Assembly (NCBI GenBank): GCA_013138965.1
Contig: WTBT01000032.1
Location: 1-49,692, forward strand
Direction of reading: 5' to 3'
DNA from: Candidatus Aegiribacteria sp.
GTDB lineage: Bacteria > Fermentibacterota > Fermentibacteria > Fermentibacterales > JCC-6
DNA length: 49,692 bases
Every line of letters begins with the position of its first letter. Position 1 is the stretch's first letter. The notes under the pieces are model-generated. The model was not told the origin of the DNA. It worked only from the letters and a program-made list of their open reading frames with translations, and did not search any database. This document shows positions 36,237-48,934 of this stretch, in pieces. The translations under genes were made by a program, and so were the position numbers.

Positions 36237-36836
36237 TCACTGATTACATGATTTTACTCTTACGGAAATATCATCTTTTTCGTTGTAGCCTTTAAGCGAA
36301 GATACAAGACCCCGAACAGCCCCCTCGATGATACCTGCCGGGAAACTGCCCAGTTCCACAAGTCTGCCTCCTAACTTCACTTCAACAGAGCCTGGGGCGA
36401 AGAAGCAGTCCTCCTCCCTCTTCTCTCCCTTAAGAATGGCTTCAGCCAGCCGCCTGCAGTCGAGGCCGCATCTTCCGCATTCCTCAGCGGTTTTCTGCGG
36501 CAGCAGACTGAACGTTTTCGCGTAGATATCTTCGGAAGAGATAGATGATTCGTTTCCATCGTACCGGGCAAGAAGCAGTGAATCATCACTGAATGTATTG
36601 CTGCCGCATTGTACAACGGGAGCTGCCAATTCCATATCAGCACGTACCAGGAAAATGTCCGGAGGCATGGACTGCATTATCCTCATTGCTGAACACGATC
36701 CGGGGAATGATACTTCGCAGCCACCCCCTTCACTATCTGAGAGAACGCATACAATCCTGTTCTGCAGAGTGTTGCTGAATATTGATATGAATTTGTCTAT
36801 CAGATCGTCTGCCCCGGTAATTTTAATACACTTCAT
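36237..36836 (-). CDS. MobB-like protein with Fe-S motif, last gene of the tungstate operon
   Basis: The 199-residue protein has a cysteine motif CGRCGLDCRRLAEAILKGEK followed by REEDC, the pattern of a small [4Fe-4S] domain. Its C-terminal VEVKLGGRLVELGSFPAGII then EGAVRGLVSSLKG recalls the end of archaeal MobB-type proteins, which act in molybdopterin or tungstopterin nucleotide attachment. The N-terminal part lacks a clear P-loop. It follows the transporter ATPase by 12 bp. A role in tungsten cofactor maturation is inferred from both similarity and position. Confidence 0.6.
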   Translation of the reverse strand: MKCIKITGADDLIDKFISIFSNTLQNRIVCVLSDSEGGGCEVSFPGSCSAMRIMQSMPPDIFLVRADMELAAPVVQCGSNTFSDDSLLLARYDGNESSISSEDIYAKTFSLLPQKTAEECGRCGLDCRRLAEAILKGEKREEDCFFAPGSVEVKLGGRLVELGSFPAGIIEGAVRGLVSSLKGYNEKDDISVRVKSCNQ

Positions 36837-36848
36837 GAAATCTCCTTC

Positions 36849-37901
36849 TCAGAATACATGAACGGCACTTGCCTTGAAGGATATATACACATCCTGACCT
36901 TCTGTCAGATCCAGTTCGGATAGAGCACTTCTGGTAACGGATGAAACTATCAACAGATTACCGCAATCCACAGAGATGCTGAAAATCGAGCCTGTGCGTT
37001 CAACGGATATGATCGTTCCCGCAAAATGATTCCGCTCACTTGTAACCGCAGTCTCCCTTGAAACAACTATTGCCTCCGGTGGTATCGCCAGAAATCCATG
37101 TCCTCTCTTATTCGATGTATGCCTGACAATAACTTCTTCAACGATAGCTCCATCTGCGCTGAATTCCGCAGGAAAAACATTCTTCATTCCAATAAATGAT
37201 GCCATGAAAGGAGTTGAAGGGCTGTAAAAGATTTCATCAATCGTTCCTGTCTGCTCTATCCGGCCGTTCCTCATGACAGCGCCAGTCGTACCGAGAGACA
37301 GGGCATCGGTGAAATCATGAGTAGCCATAATGAACGTTATGCCGATCCTTGAATGAAGATCTCTCAGTCTGCTGAGCAGGTTAAATCTCAGATTCGGGTC
37401 GAGTGATGTAGTCGGTTCATCAAGTATCAGGATTTCCGGTTCAATCACGAGCGCTCTTGCGAGTGCGACCCGCTGCAGCTCACCCCCTGAAAGAGTGCTG
37501 GAATCACGATCCCCGTACCCCTCCATATCCACCATTTCAAGCACACTCGAAACCTTCCTGCCGATCTCATCCTCAGGGATTCCTCTTATCCTCAATCCCC
37601 ACTCGACATTTGAGTTTACGCTACCTCTGAACAGAACAGGTCTCTGAAAAACAGTGACCATTCTCCGGCGTACATCCAATCTCTCTTTCCCGCGATGGGA
37701 AACAGGTTTGCCGGAGTGTATCACTCGTCCTGAAGATGGTTTATCAAGAAGACCTGCTACCCGCAGAAGAGTAGTTTTACCGCAGCCGGTTGGGCCCATA
37801 AGAACAAAAAATGCGCCCATGGAAATAGATAAATCCACATCACTGAGGATCTGCTGTCCGTTCTTCCTCTGAACGATGTTTTCAAGTTCAAGTATCATCA
37901 C
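36849..37901 (-). CDS. tupC: tungstate ABC transporter, ATP-binding protein
   Basis: The 350-residue ATPase has Walker A MGPTGCGKTTLL, signature LSGGELQRVALARAL, Walker B ILILDEPTTSLDP and the switch His in MATHDF. The C-terminal 120 residues include a TOBE/Mop-like oxyanion-binding region (NHFAGTIISVERTGSIFSIS). It couples ATP hydrolysis to tungstate uptake with the adjacent permease and binding protein. It overlaps the permease gene by 4 nt. Confidence 0.9.
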   Translation of the reverse strand: MMILELENIVQRKNGQQILSDVDLSISMGAFFVLMGPTGCGKTTLLRVAGLLDKPSSGRVIHSGKPVSHRGKERLDVRRRMVTVFQRPVLFRGSVNSNVEWGLRIRGIPEDEIGRKVSSVLEMVDMEGYGDRDSSTLSGGELQRVALARALVIEPEILILDEPTTSLDPNLRFNLLSRLRDLHSRIGITFIMATHDFTDALSLGTTGAVMRNGRIEQTGTIDEIFYSPSTPFMASFIGMKNVFPAEFSADGAIVEEVIVRHTSNKRGHGFLAIPPEAIVVSRETAVTSERNHFAGTIISVERTGSIFSISVDCGNLLIVSSVTRSALSELDLTEGQDVYISFKASAVHVF

Positions 37902-38590
37902 TTCTCGCTGTGTTGAAGGATATTAACGGTAACGCTCACGATCATAGCAAGAGCCAGAAGAATAATTCCCAGGGCAATTGAAGCTGCAGTCTCTCCCTTT
38001 CCAACTCCAAGCGCGATTGCTGTTGTGAGAGTCCTCGTGTAACCGGAAATATTACCCCCGACTATAATAGCCACTCCTATCTCCGATACTGCCCTGCCGA
38101 ATCCCATAAGAACCGCTGTCAACACCATGTATCTTGACTCGGACAGAACCTTGAGGACCATCTGCAGCTGCCCTGCCCCGAGAGATAATGCAGTATCCGA
38201 GATATCTCTTCCCATGCCTGCGAGAGCAGATATGGTCAGTCCGGTAATAATAGGAGCTATCAGGAGAACTTCACCAAGCACAATCGCACTTGGTGAAAAC
38301 AGCATTCCAAGGCTTCCAAGAGGACCTGCTCTGGAGATGAACAGAAAAACAAGCATACCCACTAACACCGTGGGTACGCTGTAAAGTGTCTGAATAATAC
38401 TGAGAAGAAACCTTTTCCCTCTGAATCGATTGAAATGAATCAGGCAAGCGAGAGGGATAAAGATGAATGATGCAACCACCGTGGCACTGATCGATATCAT
38501 CAGGGTTCGAAATGCGATAGAGAACACCACAGGGTCTCCTGAGATTATCATATCAAGTGCGATACGAACAGCTTCGAGCAACTGTGACAT
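37898..38590 (-). CDS. tupB: tungstate ABC transporter, permease
   Basis: The 230-residue protein has about five membrane helices and the EAA-type loop SALAGMGRDISDTALSLGAG. IGFGRAVSEIGVAIIVGGN matches TupB-type permeases. It forms the membrane channel with the ATPase encoded next. It lies 8 bp after the binding-protein gene. Confidence 0.9.
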   Translation of the reverse strand: MSQLLEAVRIALDMIISGDPVVFSIAFRTLMISISATVVASFIFIPLACLIHFNRFRGKRFLLSIIQTLYSVPTVLVGMLVFLFISRAGPLGSLGMLFSPSAIVLGEVLLIAPIITGLTISALAGMGRDISDTALSLGAGQLQMVLKVLSESRYMVLTAVLMGFGRAVSEIGVAIIVGGNISGYTRTLTTAIALGVGKGETAASIALGIILLALAMIVSVTVNILQHSEK

Positions 38591-38598
38591 TAACTGCC

Positions 38599-39513
38599 TT
38601 ACATGTCCAGTCCGGCGCAGGGGGTGAACAGCTGTATGCCGTACTCATCAACACCGTAGTTTCCGATAAGCTCCTGCACGGTTTCCGATGTAAGGAATTC
38701 AACAAGATTTTCTGCCATCTCAGGGTTCCTGCTCGATGTAACTTCGAGTACTGAATAAACATTCAGAAGCACATCACCCTGATCGACCACCGGTTCCAGG
38801 TCCAGATGATTCTGGTAAGCGATAAAGGTTCCCATATCCGAGAGTGTGTATGCGTTCATTTCGTCCGCCATGACAAGCGTTGGTCCCATTCCGCTTCCAC
38901 CCTCCACGTACCAGTCACCCGATGTTCGAACATCATCGTAATCGTACCCGGCCGCGGCCCAGATGGCTTTTTCTTTACCGTGTGTGCCTGAATCGTCACC
39001 CCTGGAAACAAAAACAGCCTCACCGCTGTTCATCAGTGTTGTAAAAGCTTCTTCCGGCATCATTCCTTCCAAACCTGCGGGGTCATCAGGTGATCCCGCA
39101 ATAAGGAAATAGTTGTACGCGAACGGGATACGTGCAAGGCCGTATCCTTCCTCCACGAACTGCTCTTCCCTGGCCCTGGAATGGACAGTTATAACATCAA
39201 CATCCCCTCGGAGGCCCCATTCAAGAGCTTTGCCCGTTCCCGCGTAAAGCACATCGAGTTCTACGCCGTATTCCTCTTCAAACATCGGCTCAAGATAGCT
39301 CCACAGGCCGGTATCGTACAGGCTGGTGGTCGTAGCTACCCTCAACCTGCCGGCGCTCGGCCGCGGAGGAACCGATTCGTTACCGGTGTCCTCTGTTATC
39401 TCTGTGTTCTGCTCCGGAACAGTTTCTGCCAACGGCTCTACCTCTTCGCCGCAAGCCACTGAGAGAAGCGCGATAATCAACATTCCGCTGAAGATGTATT
39501 TTGTCATTATCAT
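38599..39513 (-). CDS. tupA: tungstate-binding lipoprotein TupA
   Basis: The 304-residue protein is a lipoprotein (lipobox LLSVAC after an N-terminal helix). The mature part has the TupA hallmark VATTTSLYDTGLW, ending in the oxyanion-binding TTTS-DTGL motif, plus GDVDVITVHSRAREE and the anion-binding FVSRGDDSGTHGKE. TupA proteins select tungstate strongly over molybdate. In the window it heads the operon tupA-tupB-tupC-mobB-like and fits the tungsten-type oxidoreductase genes 4 kb away. Confidence 0.92.
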   Translation of the reverse strand: MIMTKYIFSGMLIIALLSVACGEEVEPLAETVPEQNTEITEDTGNESVPPRPSAGRLRVATTTSLYDTGLWSYLEPMFEEEYGVELDVLYAGTGKALEWGLRGDVDVITVHSRAREEQFVEEGYGLARIPFAYNYFLIAGSPDDPAGLEGMMPEEAFTTLMNSGEAVFVSRGDDSGTHGKEKAIWAAAGYDYDDVRTSGDWYVEGGSGMGPTLVMADEMNAYTLSDMGTFIAYQNHLDLEPVVDQGDVLLNVYSVLEVTSSRNPEMAENLVEFLTSETVQELIGNYGVDEYGIQLFTPCAGLDM

Positions 39514-41231: not shown

Positions 41232-41846
41232 TCACGGCGATTTCAAGGAAAAGAGGTATTCGATGATCTCGTTGGCCATCATGGCGGCCACAATGGCGAC
41301 CCTGGATGAAAGTGTACCCTGGGAAAGGTCACTTTCCTGATCTCCCACAATCGTAAGGTTCTGCCGCCTGTCAACTCTTATTGAATCGGTCTTTCCGAAA
41401 CCTGTGATACCCGAGCAGGAGAACACAGGTTTGCGGGGGAATCCTTCAAGCCAGGATTCAAGGAGCATGATCTTGGTCTCCTCCCTGTCCACCGCTTCAA
41501 CAAGCACATCACAGTCAGCAAAGATTGAACAGGCGTTTTCAGAATCTATAAGTCTGGTATGAATCTCAATCTCAGCATCGGGGTTTATGAGTTCCAGGTT
41601 ATACTTCAGCGCCTCAACCTTTGGATATCCTATCTGATCTGTGAAGTAAAACTGCCTGTTCAGGTTGGTCAGCTCAACAGAATCGAAATCGGCAATCACA
41701 AGCCTGCCTATCCCGGCACGGATCAGCGAAGCAGCTACATTCGATCCAATTCCGCCTGCTCCTGTGATACCCGCTGACGATCTGTTAAGAAGAGACGTCA
41801 GGCCGGGTGGATTGTCTCGAAAAGCACTGGTTTTTTCATCAATCAT
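41232..41846 (-). CDS. ThiF/MoeB-like adenylyltransferase for a sulfur carrier
   Basis: The 204-residue E1-like protein has the nucleotide-binding GITGAGGIGSNVAASLIRAG, then LVIADFDSVELTNLNRQFYF with the DFD and N-x-NRQ residues, and VEAVDREETKIMLLES. It is the short ThiF type without a C-terminal rhodanese. Such enzymes adenylate the GG terminus of a ThiS/MoaD-like carrier. It is transcribed away from the tungsten oxidoreductase operon, whose last gene encodes just such a carrier. I infer they work together in pterin-cofactor or thiazole sulfur transfer. Confidence 0.85.
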   Translation of the reverse strand: MIDEKTSAFRDNPPGLTSLLNRSSAGITGAGGIGSNVAASLIRAGIGRLVIADFDSVELTNLNRQFYFTDQIGYPKVEALKYNLELINPDAEIEIHTRLIDSENACSIFADCDVLVEAVDREETKIMLLESWLEGFPRKPVFSCSGITGFGKTDSIRVDRRQNLTIVGDQESDLSQGTLSSRVAIVAAMMANEIIEYLFSLKSP

Positions 41847-41869
41847 ATTTTAATTCTAAACAATCATTA

Positions 41870-42039
41870 CCGGATGTGCCAGAGTTCTTTTTGGAGGGTT
41901 GTTTCCGCCCCCTTCGATTTGTAGCTTTCATGCGTATATTTTCGTGATATTTATCACTGTGAACAGATTCTTTTAAACCTACTGGCGCCTACACAGGGAG
42001 TTTTCTATGGCAAACACTTGCAATGCCGGTGAGATTCTT
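41870..42039 (+). repeat. 170-bp direct repeat, copy A
   Basis: This copy matches 43439-43608 with only about four differences (near 41973-41980 and at 42006), a constant offset of 1569 bp and no gap. It contains a leader, a GTGAT-ATTT-ATCAC palindrome, the AGGGAG ribosome-binding site and the first 11 codons (MANTCNAGEIL) of the AOR N-domain gene. It is next to the divergent thiF-like gene. At 42039/42040 homology ends abruptly. Confidence 0.95.
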
Positions 42040-42321
42040 TTCCCAGCCTTCTGGAAGTCTGGCTGTATCAATAGAAACACCGTGGACATAAAAGCCATGT
42101 GTTTGATGGAATAGTGAGAGCTCACCCAGTGCTCCATCGATATAGATCGTTCTCTCCGGTAAGTTTTTGGGTTGTACATCAACTTCAATGGAAGTGCGGA
42201 GATTTTCAGGAGCTTCCGGATATACACTTAAAATTGCCTGAGAGCCGAATACCCACAACTCGTTGTCACCTGAAACCTCACATGCAGCCCTGATGGCATG
42301 CTGGAGCTGCTGAAATGTCAT
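41989..42321 (-). CDS. DUF6036-like nucleotidyltransferase, C-terminally truncated
   Basis: The 110-residue frame has the start of DUF6036-type nucleotidyltransferases: MTFQQLQHAIRAACEVSGDN, LWVFGSQAILSVYPEAPENL (GSQ at the nucleotide site), SIEVDVQPKN, and ALGELSLFHQTHGFYVHGVS followed by TARLPEGWEK. It then enters repeat copy A and ends NLTGIASVCHRKLPV, which is antisense of the repeat, not family sequence. About the last third or half of the protein is lost. Its start overlaps the stop of the wHTH gene by 1 nt, an operon typical of AbiE-like toxin-antitoxin pairs. Confidence 0.7.
   Translation of the reverse strand: MTFQQLQHAIRAACEVSGDNELWVFGSQAILSVYPEAPENLRTSIEVDVQPKNLPERTIYIDGALGELSLFHQTHGFYVHGVSIDTARLPEGWEKNLTGIASVCHRKLPV
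42007..42114 (+). pseudogene. duplicated 5' fragment of the AOR N-domain gene
   Basis: ATG 42007 with its ribosome-binding site encodes MANTCNAGEIL, identical to the start of the gene at 43576, and then runs out of the repeat into FPAFWKSGCINRNTVDIKAM and CLME before TAG. It has kept promoter-like and translation signals, so a 35-residue peptide could be made. It overlaps the truncated nucleotidyltransferase gene on the other strand. Confidence 0.8.
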
Positions 42322-43259
42322 TACTCACCTCCCATTTCTTTTAACACTCGATCCTTCTCCTTCTTACTCAGTACCGCAAGGAATGGACAACTTTGTCGCA
42401 ATCTTATTGCACGATCTTCTTCTGAGGAGAGAAACTGTACAAGACGTCGAACGGAATACTTCTGGAGAATGTCCATCCACTCTTCTATGTCCCCTCTTGC
42501 CGAATCGCATTTACCTTTCAGAATCAGTTTTGTGTGCTGCTCCGCCCTTTCGATTATGGATCTGTCCTCATTGATCATCTTACCGATTATCCTGCAAATC
42601 ACTGTCAGCCGCTTGTCCTGCGTTTCGTGAGAGACAGCTCCACTCATTATTCCGTTTTCAATATTACTATCTCTACCGGGGGGCAAACCGAAAAGATGCA
42701 GTGAGCTGAATTCCTGTTGAGGTGTATCAGCCTTTGTATAGCCAATCAACTCGATAGTCATGTCCACTTCCCTCTCCAGGTCCTGAAACAGTATCCGAAG
42801 ATTCTGTATTGTCACCCTTAGATTCCCGGCGTTCTGAAGTATACAAATCCTTATCGGATGCTGTGAATCGCCAGGGAGTGAAGGTATCCATGCAGAGATT
42901 GGCGGCGGTTCGACTATTTCAATGCACTTTCGGATTGAAGCCAGGATATGCTCATAACGATCAGTCTCAGCGGAGAACAGTGCGGCAACAGCCTGTACTA
43001 AGATATCATTCAGAGATATTTCGTATTGCTGTTTCCGGCCACCTCCGATAGCTCTAACGATTCCAGCAGAAGTGAGTCTCTTCATTGCCTTCCTTGCACC
43101 CAAAGGTGTAAGATCAGCTCTTTCCGCCGCGTCAACGATCGAGATAGGACCACTAACCTCCGTAAACATCACTCTGAGGAGTCTTATCTGAGCTTCGGTT
43201 CCAAGTATGATGTTCAGAGGATACCGAAAAGAATTCTGTTCAATACTTATTGGTCTCAT
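42321..43259 (-). CDS. winged-helix regulator paired with the nucleotidyltransferase
   Basis: The 312-residue protein has an N-terminal winged HTH (ISIVDAAERADLTPLGARKA ... RLTSAGIVRAIGGGRKQQYE). A helical middle and a nucleotidyltransferase-like region (HPIRICILQNAGNLRVT, EVDMTIELIGYT) follow. It reads like the antitoxin/regulator half of a toxin-antitoxin-like pair. It is preceded by a promoter with a 16-bp perfect palindrome. It lies wholly inside the insert bounded by the 170-bp repeats. Confidence 0.7.
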   Translation of the reverse strand: MRPISIEQNSFRYPLNIILGTEAQIRLLRVMFTEVSGPISIVDAAERADLTPLGARKAMKRLTSAGIVRAIGGGRKQQYEISLNDILVQAVAALFSAETDRYEHILASIRKCIEIVEPPPISAWIPSLPGDSQHPIRICILQNAGNLRVTIQNLRILFQDLEREVDMTIELIGYTKADTPQQEFSSLHLFGLPPGRDSNIENGIMSGAVSHETQDKRLTVICRIIGKMINEDRSIIERAEQHTKLILKGKCDSARGDIEEWMDILQKYSVRRLVQFLSSEEDRAIRLRQSCPFLAVLSKKEKDRVLKEMGGE

Positions 43260-43347: not shown

Positions 43348-43438
43348 TCCATATCCATATGCTAGGAGCCCTGTCAGGCAATAAGTGTCGGAAGTGACGT
43401 CCGGCCCCGCGATGTTCGGCCTTGCGATGTAAGTATTC

Positions 43439-43608
43439 CCGGATGTGCCAGAGTTCTTTTTGGAGGGTTGTTTCCGCCCCCTTCGATTTGTAGCTTTCAT
43501 GCGTATATTTTCGTGATATTTATCACTGTGAACAGATTCTTTTTTAACTACTGGCGCCTACACAGGGAGTTTTTTATGGCAAACACTTGCAATGCCGGTG
43601 AGATTCTT
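43439..43608 (+). repeat. 170-bp direct repeat, copy B (functional copy)
   Basis: This is the partner of 41870-42039. Here the repeat runs on into the complete AOR N-domain gene, so this copy carries the working upstream region of the operon. Homology begins at CCGGATGTG and no short terminal inverted repeats are visible at either junction. Confidence 0.95.
43513..43526 (+). promoter_or_regulatory. CRP/FNR-family operator candidate
   Basis: GTGATATTTATCAC fits both TGAT-N4-ATCA (FNR-type core) and GTGA-N6-TCAC (CRP-type core). It lies about 50 bp before the ATG at 43576 and a TTAACT-like -10 (43544-43549) follows at roughly class II spacing. The same site is present in copy A at 41944-41957. 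Confidence 0.5.
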
Positions 43609-44379
43609 GAGAAACAGAAGGTTCTCGGTACGCTCAAGTACACCCCCAAACCCTCCGTAAGAGGGTACACCGGGGAAATACTCAGAGTTGATATCTCCGA
43701 GCCTTCCTTCAGGATCATACCGGTAACGGAGAAAATGAAAGATGTTTTTACCGGAGGAAAAGGATTCGACCTCTGGATGATGTGGCAGGAAGTAACATCC
43801 GAAACAAAATGGGACAGTCCTGAGAACGCGATATGCATAGCTGCGGGACCTTTAGGAGGCACTACTTCTTTCTCAGGTTCCGGCAAGTCGATTGTCACAA
43901 CCATATCCCCCACGACAGGATCCGCGGTTGATTCCAATGTAGGAGGGCATTTTGGTCCTTTAATGAAGTTCTCAGGCTTCGACTGCCTTGTTATCACCGG
44001 AAAATCCGAGATTGATGTGATCATCTTCATTGACGGGATAAACGGGATAGTCCAGGTGATTGAATCTCCGCTTCTTTCGGTGAACTCACACCTGGCCGCG
44101 GAGGAGCTGGCCGAAATGTACTCCGATAATGATGACGACAAGCGCCATATTTCAACGGTTTCAGCCGGCGTAGGAGCGGAGCACGCATGGATCGGATGCC
44201 TGAATTTCTCCTGGTGGGACTGGAGAAGAAGAACCATGAGGCTGAAACAGGCCGGAAGGGGCGGAACAGGCACAGTCTTCCGGAACAAGGGTCTGAAGGC
44301 TCTTGCAGTGAAGGCTCCCCACACAAGACCCGCATGGACAATTTCCCGGCAGGATTCAGGGGAGGCATCCAATGATTGA
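43576..44379 (+). CDS. stand-alone N-terminal domain of a tungsten aldehyde:ferredoxin oxidoreductase
   Basis: The 267-residue protein is the AOR_N domain only. RGYTGEILRVDISEPSFRII is the typical start (after about 28 extra residues), then FTGGKGFDLWMMW, AICIAAGPLGGTTSFSGSGK, NVGGHFGPLMKFSGFDCLVI and QAGRGGTGTVFRNKGLKALA, equal to AAGRGGVGAVMGSKNLKAI of Pyrococcus AOR. These segments contact tungstopterin. The protein ends where domain 2 of AOR would start; domains 2-3 are encoded at 46708-48696. AGGGAG precedes the ATG. It overlaps the NuoE-like gene by 8 nt. Confidence 0.9.
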   Translation: MANTCNAGEILEKQKVLGTLKYTPKPSVRGYTGEILRVDISEPSFRIIPVTEKMKDVFTGGKGFDLWMMWQEVTSETKWDSPENAICIAAGPLGGTTSFSGSGKSIVTTISPTTGSAVDSNVGGHFGPLMKFSGFDCLVITGKSEIDVIIFIDGINGIVQVIESPLLSVNSHLAAEELAEMYSDNDDDKRHISTVSAGVGAEHAWIGCLNFSWWDWRRRTMRLKQAGRGGTGTVFRNKGLKALAVKAPHTRPAWTISRQDSGEASND

Positions 44380-44827
44380 TTTGAAAATAGTGGACGCAGT
44401 CATTGAGAAATGGAATACCGATCCGGACTTCGTTATCGAAATGATGCAGGATGTTCAGGACGAATTCAGGTATATCCCGAAGGAAGCCCTTGAAAGAATT
44501 TCCGACAGAACCGAAAAACCAAGGGGCAAACTGTTTCATATCGCCACTTTTTACAATGCTTTCAGCCTTGAGCAAAGGGGTGAAACGGAAATACAGGTCT
44601 GCATGGGAACGGCATGCTACGTAAAGGGGGCAGCGGATGTTCTTGCAGCCCTTGAAAGGGCTCTTGGTATTTCAAGCGGAGATACGACACCCGATGGCAA
44701 ATTTACCCTTACGGAAGTCAGGTGCGTCGGCGCGTGCGGGCTTGCTCCCGTTGTTACCATTGGTGATGAGGTTATCGGAGGAGTTAAATCCAGCGAAATA
44801 CCAGCTATCATCAAGAGATTCAGTTAA
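44372..44827 (+). CDS. NuoE/HndA-like [2Fe-2S] subunit
   Basis: The 151-residue thioredoxin-like ferredoxin has a helical start (DFVIEMMQDVQDEFRYIPKE) and four cluster cysteines: CMGTAC and CVGAC, in the family spacing. It passes electrons between the NuoF-like flavin subunit and the rest of the complex. Its gene sits between the two AOR parts, 12 bp before the NuoF-like gene. Confidence 0.92.
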   Translation: MIDLKIVDAVIEKWNTDPDFVIEMMQDVQDEFRYIPKEALERISDRTEKPRGKLFHIATFYNAFSLEQRGETEIQVCMGTACYVKGAADVLAALERALGISSGDTTPDGKFTLTEVRCVGACGLAPVVTIGDEVIGGVKSSEIPAIIKRFS

Positions 44828-44839
44828 GGAGGGCCGGAA

Positions 44840-46708
44840 ATGACTATTGATCAGTTAAAACAGATGCAGCAGAAGGCTCTCGATAAGTACGAAAGCTACA
44901 GTGCGGCGCTTATGGTATGCACAGGCACAGCGTGCGTCGCAAACAAATCCTTCAATCTCGTTACTGTCCTGAATGAGGAACTTGAGAAACGAAACCTGTC
45001 GAAAAAGTACCTGGTGGTACCGAGCGGCTGCAACGGGTTCTGCGCCAAGGGGCCCATTATGGTGGTTCAGCCTGAGGGGATATTCTACGAGGAGCTTACC
45101 GGCAAAGATATCCAGGAAATAATAGAGAAGCATCTTGAGGGTGGAGAACCTGTGGAAAGGCTTCTTTATCATCATGATGGAGCAGCTGTTCCCAAGATGG
45201 AGAATATTCCGTTCTTCGGAAAGCAGAAACTCCTTGCTCTGCGGCACAAGGGAATGATCAATCCTGAGAAGATCGAAGATTACTTCAGACTTGATGGATA
45301 CCAGACACTGCACAGGATACTCACAACCATGAAACCGGAGGAAGTGATCACTGAAATCATCCGCTCCGGCATCAGGGGCCGTGGAGGCGGTGGTTTCCCG
45401 GCTGGAGTGAAGTGGCAATCGTGTGCCCAAGCCGTTGAAAAAACCGGAAACCCTCCGTCTGTGATCTGCAACGCGGATGAGGGAGACCCCGGCGCTTTCA
45501 TGGACAGAAGCATAATAGAGGCAGACCCCCACAGTGTAATAGAGGGAATGCTTACGGGCGCCTATGCAGTGGGAGCCAGCAGGGGATACATCTATATCCG
45601 CAAGGAATACCCCCTTGCCATGAAACGGCTGATCATTGCTATAGATCAGGCACGCGAACACGGCCTTCTTGGAAAGAATATCTTCAATGCCGGATTCGAT
45701 TTCGATATTGTAGTACACAGGGGCGCCGGAGCCTTCGTGTGTGGTGAGTCTTCAGCCCTGATGGCTTCCATGGCCGGTGATCCGGGAGAACCAAGAGCAA
45801 AATACGTCCGTTCCGTTGAGCGGGGCTACAAGGATAAACCGACTGTCCTGAACAACGTTGAGACCTGGGCCAACATTCCCCTGATAATGGAAAAAGGAGC
45901 TGAATGGTTCGCATCCATCGGAACAGGCGATGTATCTGAGAATCCCTGGAACGGATCATCGGGAACCAAGGTTTTCTCTCTTGTCGGAGACGTGAACAAC
46001 ATAGGCCTCGTTGAAGTGCCTATGGGAATAACTCTCCGGGAGATCATCTACGATATCGGCGGAGGCATTCCTGAAGAGAGGGAATTCAAGGCTGTACAGA
46101 CAGGAGGCCCTTCAGGAGGAGTCCTCCCTGCCGACAAACTTGATCTTCCGGTGGATTTCGACACTCTCACTGAGGTTGGCTCAATGATGGGCTCGGGCGG
46201 AATGGTCGTCATGGATGATGAAACATGCATGATCCAGGTGGCAAAGTACTTTGTTGATTTCCTCAAGGATGAATCCTGCGGCAAGTGCACACCCTGCAGG
46301 GAAGGACTTGTCGCCCTTGGCACTATTCTGGAAAGGATAACCAACGGAGATGGCCGCCAGGGTGACATCGAACTTCTCGAAGAATATGCGCAGAACATGT
46401 GCGAAAGCAGTCTGTGCGCGCTGGGTCAGACTGCGGCCAATCCTGTTCTCAGCACAATCGAGTACTTCCGGGATGAATACGAAGATCATATCCGGAAGAG
46501 AAAATGCATGGCGCTCAAGTGCAAGGCGCTTATTGAGTACCACATAATTGCCGATAACTGTACCGGCTGCACCATCTGCGCCAGAAACTGCCCGGTGGAC
46601 GCGATCGAGGGCAGCCTGAAGGAACAACATATGATAGACCAGGAGAAGTGTATTCACTGCGGAGTCTGCAGGGAAGTATGTAACTTCAACGCGGTGGAGG
46701 TACTCTAA
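44840..46708 (+). CDS. NuoF/HndC-like NAD(H)- and FMN-binding subunit with extra ferredoxin domains
   Basis: The 622-residue protein has, in order, an N-terminal [2Fe-2S] thioredoxin-like domain (CTGTAC, CNGFC), the Nuo51 FMN/NADH fold (GRGGGGFPAGVKW, NADEGDPGAFMDR, GAGAYVCGE-like GAGAFVCGESSAL), a SLBB region, and the N3-type cluster motif CGKCTPCREG. A C-terminal two-cluster ferredoxin follows (CTGCTICARNCPVD and CIHCGVCREVCNFNAV). This architecture is that of HndC/HydB-type subunits found in electron-bifurcating enzymes. AAGGAGG lies before the ATG. It overlaps the next gene by 1 nt. Confidence 0.93.
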   Translation: MTIDQLKQMQQKALDKYESYSAALMVCTGTACVANKSFNLVTVLNEELEKRNLSKKYLVVPSGCNGFCAKGPIMVVQPEGIFYEELTGKDIQEIIEKHLEGGEPVERLLYHHDGAAVPKMENIPFFGKQKLLALRHKGMINPEKIEDYFRLDGYQTLHRILTTMKPEEVITEIIRSGIRGRGGGGFPAGVKWQSCAQAVEKTGNPPSVICNADEGDPGAFMDRSIIEADPHSVIEGMLTGAYAVGASRGYIYIRKEYPLAMKRLIIAIDQAREHGLLGKNIFNAGFDFDIVVHRGAGAFVCGESSALMASMAGDPGEPRAKYVRSVERGYKDKPTVLNNVETWANIPLIMEKGAEWFASIGTGDVSENPWNGSSGTKVFSLVGDVNNIGLVEVPMGITLREIIYDIGGGIPEEREFKAVQTGGPSGGVLPADKLDLPVDFDTLTEVGSMMGSGGMVVMDDETCMIQVAKYFVDFLKDESCGKCTPCREGLVALGTILERITNGDGRQGDIELLEEYAQNMCESSLCALGQTAANPVLSTIEYFRDEYEDHIRKRKCMALKCKALIEYHIIADNCTGCTICARNCPVDAIEGSLKEQHMIDQEKCIHCGVCREVCNFNAVEVL

Positions 46709-48696
46709 TGGCTGACAGAGAAATGATAACAATCGAAATTGACGATAAACCAGTCTCGGTCGGGAAGGATTCGACCATTCTTGAAGCCGCGCGGGAAATC
46801 GACATCTATATTCCGGCGCTCTGCAACAGTGAACTGGTTGAGCCGTACGCGGCGTGCAGGCTCTGCATTGTGGAAGTGGATGACGGAAGAAAGAAAATAC
46901 TGGTTACTTCATGCAATTATCCTGTTCGGAAACCCATCAAGGTATACACCTCTTCGGAAAAGGTGCTCAGGAACAGGAAAATCATACTGGAGATGATGCT
47001 TTCCAGGTGGCCCGGTGTGCAGGTCATAAAGGATCTCGCGAAACATGCCGGGATTCAAAAACCCCGCTATCAGCATCCCGCAGTAGATCTGAATCCCAAC
47101 GCCTGCATTCTATGCGGCCTCTGCATGAGAATCTGCGAACAGGGCATCTGGGAGAACATCATCAATTTCACGAACAGGGGCGCGGTGAGGGCGGTTCGAA
47201 TGCCCTACGATTCCGACCAGCCCCATTGTATAGGATGCGGGGCTTGCGCCGAAATATGTCCCACCGGGGCAATAACCATGGTTGACGACCCTAACCATCC
47301 CCACGACGCCGATATGGTTCGACGCGCAGGCATGAGAATAACCGAGGAGATGATCAGGTTCGACGAGGAGCAGTGCGACATGCGCGGAGTGGGGACCGCC
47401 CACCTTGTTGAGATAATGGATGCCTACGATCTCCTCCCCGTCATGAACTACCAATATGGCAAACATGAAGATACTCCAAAGATCAGCTCCGATGTCCTCA
47501 GAAAATTCTTCACAAAGGGTAAACCGGATGGATGCTGGCTCGGATGCACCATGGCCTGCGCAAAGGCCATCGAGGATTTCGAACTGAAAACCGGGCCCTA
47601 TAAAGGAGAGAAAGTCCTCGTTGACGGCCCGGAATACGAAACCCTGGGCGGTTCATCCAATATGGGCATATTCGACCCCCGTTTCGTAATCGAGTACAAT
47701 TTCTACTGTGACACCTACGGACTTGATACGATCTCCTTCTCAACAGGACTATCCTTTGTTATGGAGTGTTACGAAACCGGCATTCTTGATAAGGAAAAAA
47801 CCGGAGGGCTTGAAATCCCCTTCGGCGCTAAGGACGCGGCCCTTGAACTTCTGCATCAGATAGGCCGGGGAGAGGGTTTCGGACTCATCGCCGGCAAGGG
47901 TATCCGCTACATGAAGAAATACTTCGTGGAGAATTTCGGCGCCGATCCGGACTTCGTGACTGATATCGGCATGGAAGCCAAGGGAATGGAATACTCCGAA
48001 TACGTAACCAAGGAATCCCTTGCCCAGCAGGGCGGTTACGGCATAGCCCTGAAAGGCGCCCAGCATGATGAAGCCTGGCTGATCTTCATGGACATGGTGA
48101 ACAAGCAGATACCGACCTTTGAAGATAAAGCTGAAGCCCTTCATTACTTCCCCATGTGGAGAACATGGTTCGGTCTGTGCGGGCTCTGCAAGCTTCCCTG
48201 GAACGATGTTGAGCCGGCGAATAACGCCGAAACAGATGAACCGGCAAAGGTACCCGGACATGTCCAGGGGTACTGCGAGTTCTTCGAAGGGGTTACAGGA
48301 AAACCTCAGACCATGGACAGCCTGATAAGAATGTCCGAGAAGGTCTACACCTTCCAGCGCGTTTTCAACCTGAAGATGGGCTTCGGAAAAAGAGAACATG
48401 ACGTAATACCCTACAGGTCTGCCGGTCCCGTTACTGTTACGGAGTACGAATCACGTCAGGAACGATACGACACACAGCTTCGCGTAGACGTGGGAATCGA
48501 TCCCTCCGGAATGTCTTCCGAAGAGAAGGTTGCAGCCATGCGTAAATACCGCGAAGCGCAGTACGAGCAACTGCTGGACGCGGTTTACAAGCGCAGGGGC
48601 TGGACGAACGATGGTGTTCCGACGGTCGAAAAGCTCGAGGAGTTGGGCATCGATTTCCCGGATGTAATCGAGCTCGTACGAAAACACGGAGGTTGA
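46708..48696 (+). CDS. NuoG-like iron-sulfur module fused to AOR C-terminal catalytic domains
   Basis: The 662-residue protein starts with a NuoG/HydA-type [2Fe-2S] domain (PALCNSELVEPYAACRLCIV) and two [4Fe-4S] motifs (CILCGLCMRICEQ, CIGCGACAEICPTGAI) in the first 230 residues. From about residue 265 it continues as AOR domains 2 and 3: cluster cysteines C276, C280 and C284 (GCWLGCTMAC), VDGPEYETLGGSSNMGIFD, DTYGLDTISFSTGLSFVMEC, a late Cys (LCGLCKLPW, about 491-494) and the ending RRGWTNDGVPTVEKLEELGI. The first AOR domain is missing and is encoded at 43576-44379. Tungstopterin would bind between the two chains. I know of no named enzyme with this exact arrangement. Confidence 0.9.
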   Translation: MADREMITIEIDDKPVSVGKDSTILEAAREIDIYIPALCNSELVEPYAACRLCIVEVDDGRKKILVTSCNYPVRKPIKVYTSSEKVLRNRKIILEMMLSRWPGVQVIKDLAKHAGIQKPRYQHPAVDLNPNACILCGLCMRICEQGIWENIINFTNRGAVRAVRMPYDSDQPHCIGCGACAEICPTGAITMVDDPNHPHDADMVRRAGMRITEEMIRFDEEQCDMRGVGTAHLVEIMDAYDLLPVMNYQYGKHEDTPKISSDVLRKFFTKGKPDGCWLGCTMACAKAIEDFELKTGPYKGEKVLVDGPEYETLGGSSNMGIFDPRFVIEYNFYCDTYGLDTISFSTGLSFVMECYETGILDKEKTGGLEIPFGAKDAALELLHQIGRGEGFGLIAGKGIRYMKKYFVENFGADPDFVTDIGMEAKGMEYSEYVTKESLAQQGGYGIALKGAQHDEAWLIFMDMVNKQIPTFEDKAEALHYFPMWRTWFGLCGLCKLPWNDVEPANNAETDEPAKVPGHVQGYCEFFEGVTGKPQTMDSLIRMSEKVYTFQRVFNLKMGFGKREHDVIPYRSAGPVTVTEYESRQERYDTQLRVDVGIDPSGMSSEEKVAAMRKYREAQYEQLLDAVYKRRGWTNDGVPTVEKLEELGIDFPDVIELVRKHGG

Positions 48697-48704
48697 TATT
48701 TGCA

Positions 48705-48727
48705 GGCGGGGACAATTTGTCCCCGCC
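48705..48727 (+). promoter_or_regulatory. perfect hairpin before the sulfur-carrier gene
   Basis: GGCGGGGACA and TGTCCCCGCC (10 bp) with a 3-nt ATT loop end 9 nt before the ATG at 48737. No T-run follows. The left or right arm occupies the place of a ribosome-binding site, so it may lower translation of the carrier, stop 3' decay, or partly terminate. Confidence 0.6.
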
Positions 48728-48736
48728 GCTGACAGT

Positions 48737-48934
48737 ATGATAAATGTTAACGGCGAACAATCAGAATGGTCCCGGGGTAAGACAGTAAGGGATGTCATAA
48801 AGGAGAAGAATTACCTCTTCCCCCTTCTTATCGCACGAATCAACGGAAAACTCATACCCAGGGATAAATACGATTCCACGGTAATTCCGGATGAAGCAAC
48901 TGTAGACATAATCCATCTGATGTCCGGAGGATAA
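48737..48934 (+). CDS. ThiS/MoaD-like sulfur-carrier protein
   Basis: The 65-residue beta-grasp protein begins MINVNGEQSEWSRGKTVRDV and ends with VDIIHLMSGG, the C-terminal Gly-Gly that is adenylated and thiocarboxylated. The partner enzyme is probably the ThiF-like protein encoded at 41232-41846, beyond the start of the same operon. Carriers of this kind are often placed with AOR genes, where they likely supply dithiolene sulfur for tungstopterin; thiazole synthesis is the alternative. Confidence 0.88.
   Translation: MINVNGEQSEWSRGKTVRDVIKEKNYLFPLLIARINGKLIPRDKYDSTVIPDEATVDIIHLMSGG

Follow-up and report, generated by a model that had tools for sequence, protein, structure and literature searches.

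How could a tungsten aldehyde oxidoreductase (AOR) work if its catalytic subunit is encoded by two genes? This question is raised by an operon in a 49,692-nucleotide stretch of DNA from Candidatus Aegiribacteria sp. (Fermentibacterota; contig WTBT01000032.1), which we refer to as the window. The initial annotation of this stretch, made from the sequence alone, proposed that AOR domain 1 (AOR_N) is encoded by itself, that domains 2 and 3 (AOR_C) are fused to a NuoG-like module, and that the two halves assemble a tungstopterin site. Based on open reading frames and Pfam searches, all of the genes it had named are present, and positions 43576 to 48934 encode the following proteins, all on the plus strand:

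43576 to 44379, plus strand: AOR_N (AOR domain 1 alone), 267 amino acids (aa); PF02730 (AFOR_N), profile positions 1 to 197 of 199, E value 4.8e-44
44372 to 44827, plus strand: NuoE/BfuC/WorC-like [2Fe-2S] thioredoxin-like subunit, 151 aa; PF01257, E value 1.7e-45
44840 to 46708, plus strand: NuoF/BfuB/WorB-like subunit, 622 aa; PF01512, PF10589, PF01257, and Fer4
46708 to 48696, plus strand: NuoG N terminus/BfuA/WorA-like part fused to AOR domains 2 and 3, 662 aa; Fer2_4 and PF01314
48737 to 48934, plus strand: ThiS/MoaD-like sulfur carrier with a GG end, presumed pterin-cofactor accessory; PF02597 and TIGR01683

The genes are tightly coupled, with the stop codon of AOR_N overlapping the start of NuoE and that of NuoF overlapping the start of the fusion. 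Residues 1 to 193 of the fused chain make up the NuoG part (Fer2_4 plus two [4Fe-4S] motifs), and the AOR part begins at about residue 195 and matches PF01314 (AFOR_C) over profile positions 14 to 385 of 385 (E value, 8.5e-93). The two AOR profiles are covered over nearly their full length, on two proteins, which bears out the proposed division. In order, the domains of the NuoF-like protein are an N-terminal 2Fe-2S thioredoxin-like domain, FMN/NADH and NuoF 4Fe-4S domains, and a C-terminal 2x[4Fe-4S] domain (Pfam). The split AOR is a conserved architecture that is under selection, forms a single clade, and keeps the active-site residue content of its family. We conclude that the operon probably encodes an aldehyde-type tungstopterin oxidoreductase with a catalytic subunit made of two chains, carried on a BfuABC-type electron-bifurcating core; docking of the two chains, tungsten, an aldehyde substrate, and bifurcation are predicted features of this enzyme.

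The split form is conserved among relatives

A scan of genome contigs returned 204 relatives of the fusion, of which we kept the best 80 (L001 to L080); the closest matches share 92% identity over the fusion and are from Candidatus Aegiribacteria/Fermentibacterota. L001 to L040 carry the NuoG-AOR_C fusion, intact or truncated where a contig ends (the frames of L040 are broken), and L041 to L080 are single-chain AORs, mostly of about 720 aa. With loci from whole-genome searches added, the tree set comprised 53 split-type and 53 single-chain rows (104 different sequences). L040, because of its broken frames, and L017, L015, and L071, which are cut by contig ends, were left out, and AOR_N or a piece of it is visible in the first three of these. 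AOR_N is separate from AOR_C in 45 of the 53 split-type rows; in the other 8 (L005, L006, L010, L014, L023, L032, L128, and L129), the contig ends before AOR_N could appear.

It is exceedingly improbable that this pattern arose from an ordinary AOR operon by decay, by frameshift, or by rearrangement during assembly. One case speaks for it: in Candidatus Sabulitectum silens JCC-6 (L040/L102), frames are broken through the operon, with relatives intact, which reflects either sequencing errors or decay in that genome. Against it stand the 45 rows and the ratios of nonsynonymous to synonymous change (dN/dS) between the window and six close relatives, which are 0.04 to 0.13 for AOR_N and 0.04 to 0.08 for the fusion (synonymous change relative to L008 is near saturation) and which indicate that both AOR halves are under purifying selection. 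Based on these values, the 45 rows, and the contig ends that account for the other 8, we rejected decay and assembly error. The same arrangement recurs in many separate assemblies labeled as several phyla, which excludes chance or the assembly rearrangement that the initial annotation had named as a possible refutation. Its view that the split does not look like decay holds; the cut lies at the boundary of domains 1 and 2, and the split rows form one clade. A full-length AOR at this place, also named as evidence against a split enzyme, does occur in related Fermentibacterota; the split form is not refuted by these single-chain AORs, which branch apart from the split clade and lack NuoEFG at their locus.

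Position of the cut and the tail of AOR_N

Single-chain relatives have a linker of about a dozen residues between the last strand of domain 1 and the start of domain 2 (e.g., KALVVKYKGVKGDSNGPVDKQ in L043). Domain 1 of the split form stops at the end of that strand as well, and the linker is replaced by a tail that has a conserved Trp, frequently as RPxW; in the window, this tail is the RPAWTIS region at the C terminus of AOR_N. On the other side of the cut, the NuoG part joins the AOR part just before the invariant Asn that opens domain 2 (N196 of the fusion). The tail Trp was found in 45/45 split AOR_N and in 0/53 single-chain AORs. It appears to have arisen with the split and to have been retained, as a docking element would be.

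AOR_N is fused to NuoE in L037, L038, L039, L130, L132, and L134, and in L131, L133, L142, and L143, AOR_N, NuoE, and NuoF are in one polypeptide of about 900 aa, so that the enzyme would consist of two genes, AOR_N-NuoE-NuoF and NuoG-AOR_C. These ten loci form one clade (support of 100, starred). No NuoE or NuoF was found on the stretch examined in L022 and L028, where AOR_N and the fusion are still adjacent. Taken with this adjacency, the natural fusions suggest that the partners of AOR_N are the fused chain and the NuoE/NuoF diaphorase, and the AOR_N-NuoE/NuoF and NuoG-AOR_C fusions point to one complex. Separately, we observed that the genome of L022 (G042) has a NuoE-NuoF pair elsewhere (L111), with no NuoG match within the 4.8 kilobases examined; the L111 NuoF lies on a long branch and groups as sister to the NuoF clade of the split AORs (moderate support, 84).

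Active-site residues and predicted structure

Motif and Pfam matches place a [2Fe-2S] cluster at C39, C50, C53, and C69 of the NuoG part and two [4Fe-4S] clusters at C133, C136, C139, and C143 and at C174, C177, C180, and C184. The AOR part has T230, E311, Y432, and H453, and its cluster ligands are C276, C280, and C284, which had been pointed out in the initial annotation, together with a fourth, C494; all four are invariant in a 40-row alignment. The equivalents of T243, E313, Y427, and H448 of Pyrococcus AOR show no variation across the 33 split and 47 single-chain rows compared, and these residues are conserved in most of the aldehyde oxidoreductases listed in a review (PMC12096430; papers are cited here by PMC number). 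By its [4Fe-4S] ligands and second-shell residues, the fused chain matches the AOR/tungsten oxidoreductase (WOR) family, apart from the spacing of the cluster Cys residues. In domain 1, the position of the Mg ligand N93 is Asn in 32/33 split and 47/47 single-chain rows, and the G95 position is conserved in 33/33 and 47/47, respectively. These pterin-side residues, together with the second-shell and cluster residues, are those predicted to come together where the two AOR halves meet.

We modeled the fused chain with AlphaFold2 from a 40-row alignment of 29 fusions and 11 single-chain domain 2-3 stretches, and single-chain L043, also from a 40-row alignment, served as a control. The mean predicted local distance difference test (pLDDT) score was 78.6 for the fused chain and 89.5 for the control, with predicted template modeling (pTM) scores of 0.73 and 0.92. 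In the fused chain, pLDDT fell below 50 in regions that include the cluster loop (277 to 281) and residues 424 to 456, which are among the most conserved; the latter hold the active-site Tyr and His. Block means were 52 and 69 (fused chain) versus 85 and 87 (L043) for the cluster loop and 50, 38, 39, and 46 versus 90, 77, 73, and 55 for the active-site loop, and the mean over domains 2 and 3 together was 78.7 versus 87.5. These low-confidence loops fit a chain that would need domain 1 to order its active site, a contrast that is suggestive only because the two models differ in protein and alignment. By Foldseek, the control matched 1aor with a TM score of 0.89, and the fused chain matched AORs at 0.48 to 0.53 and 9mqx_A at 0.65 (normalized by target). 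Within the PDB, the C-terminal part of the fusion matched AORs, and its NuoG part was closest to 9mqx_A (E value, 6.4e-34; 37% identity). The title of entry 9mqx is that of an electron-bifurcating tungsten aldehyde oxidoreductase, which we take to be the Class IV WOR of Acetomicrobium mobile.

Predicted electron partners and proposed mechanism

The NuoF of the window carries HIRKRKCMALKC, which has the HX5CX4C signature of bifurcating BfuB. This signature is present in 36/36 NuoF sequences with a score above 600 (shorter fragments, such as those of L010 and L023, and the single-chain loci L065 and L073 are not among them) and in 5/6 further NuoF sequences. Its His is a ligand of a special [2Fe-2S] cluster, and it is found in nearly all bifurcating enzymes and is absent from nonbifurcating homologues (PMC9304861). 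A NuoF of this bifurcating BfuB type leads us to predict ferredoxin as well as NAD(H) as electron partners. The suggestion in the initial annotation that the site is wired directly to NAD(H) thus stands for NAD(H) as a partner and does not stand for NAD(H) alone.

Under the mechanism that we propose, AOR_N would dock on domains 2 and 3 of the fused chain and close a bis-pterin site at the subunit interface; the conserved Trp tail may stand in for the lost covalent linker by docking to a partner chain. Electrons would then pass from the tungsten site to the AOR [4Fe-4S] cluster and on to the [4Fe-4S] and [2Fe-2S] clusters of the NuoG part, all in the same chain, and the NuoE/NuoF (BfuCB) core would split them between NAD+ and ferredoxin or run in reverse. 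With the catalytic domain joined directly to the counterpart of WorA/BfuA, the enzyme would not need a WorS polyferredoxin. By analogy with the A. mobile enzyme, for which aldehyde oxidation with simultaneous reduction of NAD+ and ferredoxin has been reported (PMC9304861), the most likely function is reversible aldehyde oxidation with joint reduction of both carriers, for detoxification or fermentation.

Origin and distribution

A combined tree placed the 53 split rows on one side of a single branch and the 53 single-chain rows on the other (Shimodaira-Hasegawa-like approximate likelihood ratio test [SH-aLRT], 98, starred). Domain 1 alone recovers the split group, with the split rows again on one side in the AOR_N-only tree (45 split and 53 single-chain rows; 99, starred). 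The AOR_C-only tree (33 split and 47 single-chain rows) needs two changes, and no starred branch in it opposes a single origin. With four solved AORs as the outgroup, a rooting that is weak because these lie on very long branches, the split clade (33 rows; 99, starred) falls within the single-chain AORs, which would make the split the derived state. One origin of the split is the simplest reading of these trees. Labels within the split clade include Fermentibacterota, Myxococcota/Deltaproteobacteria, Bdellovibrionales, Acidobacteria, Eisenbacteria, and Cloacimonetes, a spread that suggests that the split AOR has moved between phyla. Pairwise distances across 31 loci correlated almost equally for AOR_N and AOR_C (0.845), AOR_N and the NuoG part (0.846), and AOR_N and NuoE (0.826) and so reveal nothing specific to the AOR_N/AOR_C pair.

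Searches of whole genomes by phylum recovered both forms. Of the 42 genomes of the window's phylum, at least 24 have the fused form (three of them in pieces) and at least 8 have an AOR_C match without the NuoG part, plus 2 with end fragments only. The corresponding counts of genomes, fused and without the NuoG part, were 8 and 5 in 195 genomes of the phylum of L021, 2 and 45 in 396 genomes of that of L025, 16 and 49 (plus 3 fragments) in 124 genomes of that of L023, and 4 and 0 in 290 genomes of that of L037; for these four phyla, the cut-off was 1e-100, and only some of the candidates in each genome were scored. Among the matches listed, no genome has both the fused and the single-chain kind, an exclusivity that is not firm because of this cut-off, the scoring of some candidates only, and, for the window's phylum, a list that covers the stronger matches. 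We considered single-chain ThiF-AOR-ThiS loci from the same order (L093 to L097) as a direct preinsertion state and did not keep them as such. They branch elsewhere in the tree, close to AORs of Aminicenantes and of some Cloacimonadota, and so show only the common neighborhood of the family.

Neighboring genes and genome context

Two further features of the window are presumed to serve a tungsten enzyme or its cofactor:

41232 to 41846, minus strand: ThiF/MoeB-like adenylyltransferase that presumably acts with the ThiS/MoaD-like protein; PF00899 and NF006395 (each above its cut-off)
36849 to 39513, minus strand: oxyanion ABC transporter (TupA-, TupB-, and WtpC-like), presumed tungstate uptake; NCBIfam

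A ThiF/MoeB-like gene adjoins the loci of many, not all, relatives, and MoaD genes linked to AOR have been described (PMC1779556). For the transporter, TupA is the sole NCBIfam match of the TupA-like protein (E value, 2.5e-47), the permease matches the generic ABC_perm1 best (4.7e-62) and TupB second (1.7e-46), and WtpC is the top match of the WtpC-like protein (8.9e-85), with every Tup or Wtp match below the curated cut-off for its name. The window's genome, which is 94% complete, has one AFOR_N and one AFOR_C match, both in this operon. We rejected the idea that AOR_N is the partner of another AOR, as no other AOR was found in that genome. With a MoaA-family match and two PF00384 matches in the same genome, synthesis of a pterin cofactor is plausible there and would not be specific to the split AOR.

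Several smaller features were noted nearby. Beside the tungstate-type transporter, positions 36237 to 36836 encode a protein of 199 aa that weakly resembles MobB/FeS-domain proteins. The region upstream of AOR_N and the first codons of the gene are present twice, as a direct repeat of 174 bp (41866 to 42039 and 43435 to 43608; 97% identity). Between the copies lies a two-ORF insert on the minus strand, of which 41989 to 42321 has no Pfam match and 42321 to 43259 has a weak match to DUF7342. In L001 to L004, ThiF lies close to AOR_N, so the insert in the window looks like a recent mobile piece.

Alternative explanations

The alternatives to a bifurcating split AOR are not mutually exclusive. 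It is unlikely that the reconstituted enzyme passes its electrons through the diaphorase to NAD+ only, with no bifurcation and no ferredoxin. Nuo-like modules of several enzymes do not bifurcate, and the His/Cys signature of bifurcating BfuB, which the window-type NuoF carries, is not one of nonbifurcating homologues (PMC9304861). The extra N-terminal and C-terminal FeS domains of this NuoF also argue for bifurcation, whereas the AOR_N-NuoE-NuoF fusions, which seem to be without the extra 2Fe-2S domain of NuoF, would suit an NAD+-only enzyme. We consider it improbable that the operon encodes a benzoyl-CoA-reductase-like or other nonaldehyde tungsten enzyme. The subfamily is only distantly related to characterized AORs, and Bam complexes likewise pair an AOR-fold subunit with BfuABC homologues (PMC9304861); against this, the four second-shell residues of aldehyde-oxidizing members are invariant in the split and single-chain rows, and BamB is without them according to the review (PMC12096430). 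We consider it very unlikely that AOR_N is not a catalytic half but serves the diaphorase in regulation or as a scaffold, with a reduced or different catalytic site in the fused chain. The Trp tail and the fusions to NuoE and NuoF do tie AOR_N to the diaphorase, but its pterin/Mg-side residues are nearly as conserved as in single-chain AORs, the only AOR_C in the genome is the fused chain with its invariant active site, and the active-site loops are of low confidence without domain 1.

Several observations weigh against the bifurcating, aldehyde-type split enzyme that we prefer. This subfamily has CX3CX3C instead of CX2CX3C, G, S, or A in place of D489, and Q at the A183 position; it is 20 to 28% identical to solved AORs, and we found no characterized member of it, so aldehyde activity is what we infer across this distance and these differences. 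A tree of domains 2 and 3 alone does not separate the split rows from the others by a single branch. The NuoF match of the AOR_N-NuoE-NuoF fusions begins late (overlapping NuoE in L133), which is why the NuoF part seems to be without its own N-terminal 2Fe-2S domain, and L133 is also without the exact HX5CX4C pattern; bifurcation may therefore not hold for every member. The fused chain model is also low at residues 149 to 175, in the NuoG part, and the L043 control has a weak stretch of its own (571 to 578). Docking of AOR_N on the fusion is a prediction from the evidence above. The window's genome has two PF00384 molybdopterin matches, and the transporter, with its matches below cut-off, and cofactor genes are thus no evidence for this enzyme alone.

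A more elaborate version of the split enzyme can be imagined, although we think it improbable as well. AOR_N, which some lineages have joined to NuoE or NuoE-NuoF, would close a ring via the bifurcating core with AOR_C and its attached NuoG part, and the AOR_N/AOR_C interface at the tungsten site would open and close in step with the gating movements proposed for NuoE/NuoF. The metal site would then act as a clutch, and the split would be functional and not just tolerated.

Relation to known tungsten enzymes and implications

One of the closest known systems is Class IV WOR (WorABCSL), which likewise has an AOR-type catalytic subunit with a WorA/B/C-like bifurcating module. In that enzyme, WorL is one chain, WorA is separate, and the polyferredoxin WorS links them (PMC13328260), whereas in the window WorL is split and its C-terminal part is fused to WorA. 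The WorA, WorB, and WorC domain sets of Class IV are present, as judged by Pfam counterparts of the published InterPro sets (PMC13328260); no WorS-type gene with four [4Fe-4S] clusters was found at 43576 to 48934, so the operon differs from the five-subunit WorLSABC set. Type 1 Bfu enzymes likewise have a catalytic domain fused to BfuA and a BfuBC core. In the published scheme, the Type 1 catalytic domains are FeFe, Nfn, Fdh, and F420, and Wor is Type 2, with extra subunits (PMC9304861). The window system has both the His ligand of the B2 cluster in its BfuBC core and a catalytic domain fused to BfuA. It differs in that this domain is an AOR, with domain 1 as a separate subunit; in terms of the scheme, it would count as a Type 1 Wor that keeps a piece of the catalytic subunit outside the fusion.

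Class II benzoyl-CoA reductase (Bam) likewise combines an AOR-fold tungsten subunit with BfuABC homologues (PMC9304861), but BamB is one chain that occurs with BamC and HdrA-like subunits and is without the aldehyde second-shell residues (PMC13328260, PMC12096430). Judged on these residues, which are present here, the split AOR is probably not of the Bam type. Single-chain AORs of the same subfamily (e.g., L043 and L053) are 63 to 69% identical to the window in domains 2 and 3 (11 aligned) and, as in the window, often adjoin ThiF/ThiS; unlike the split form, they are mostly one chain of about 720 aa, with no NuoEFG inserted and no Trp tail.

Other combinations of these modules were also seen. 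L065 (8146 to 14492) and L073 (9729 to 16228) have a single-chain AOR and ThiS, followed by a NuoE-NuoF fusion (790 to 795 aa) and a protein of 1,304 to 1,309 aa, which, in L065, the one searched, has NCBIfam matches to a mixture of NuoG/hydrogenase N-terminal, HdrA-like, and NAD(P)-binding parts; this is perhaps another form of bifurcating WOR. L113 and L118 have NuoE-NuoF-NuoG-like sets next to genes in which the beginning of the sequence, judged by eye, resembles 2-oxoacid:ferredoxin oxidoreductase subunits, a likeness to the Por-Bfu of PMC9304861.

A 2026 census of 4,064 WOR members required both AOR domains in one protein (PMC13328260), an arrangement found neither in the window nor in the 45 rows with AOR_N in view. 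Split enzymes could not enter such a census, which points to a blind spot. We found no description of a split AOR or a NuoG-AOR fusion in the literature searched, which comprised titles, the starts of abstracts, and passages. The conserved Trp tail of AOR_N and the fusions of AOR_N to NuoE in ten loci, four of them also with NuoF, appear to be new here. Because single-chain versions with closely similar domains 2 and 3 exist, the effect of the split is directly testable.

If the proposed enzyme is real, its tungstopterin site would lie at the interface of two gene products, whose genes bracket a bifurcating diaphorase in the operon. It would supply a WOR catalytic domain fused to BfuA, an arrangement listed in the Bfu scheme for other enzymes and not for WOR (PMC9304861), and suggests that the WorS wire is dispensable. 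More broadly, the split AOR, which occurs in several bacterial groups that are mostly uncultured, points to a new wiring between an old tungsten enzyme and cellular energy carriers.

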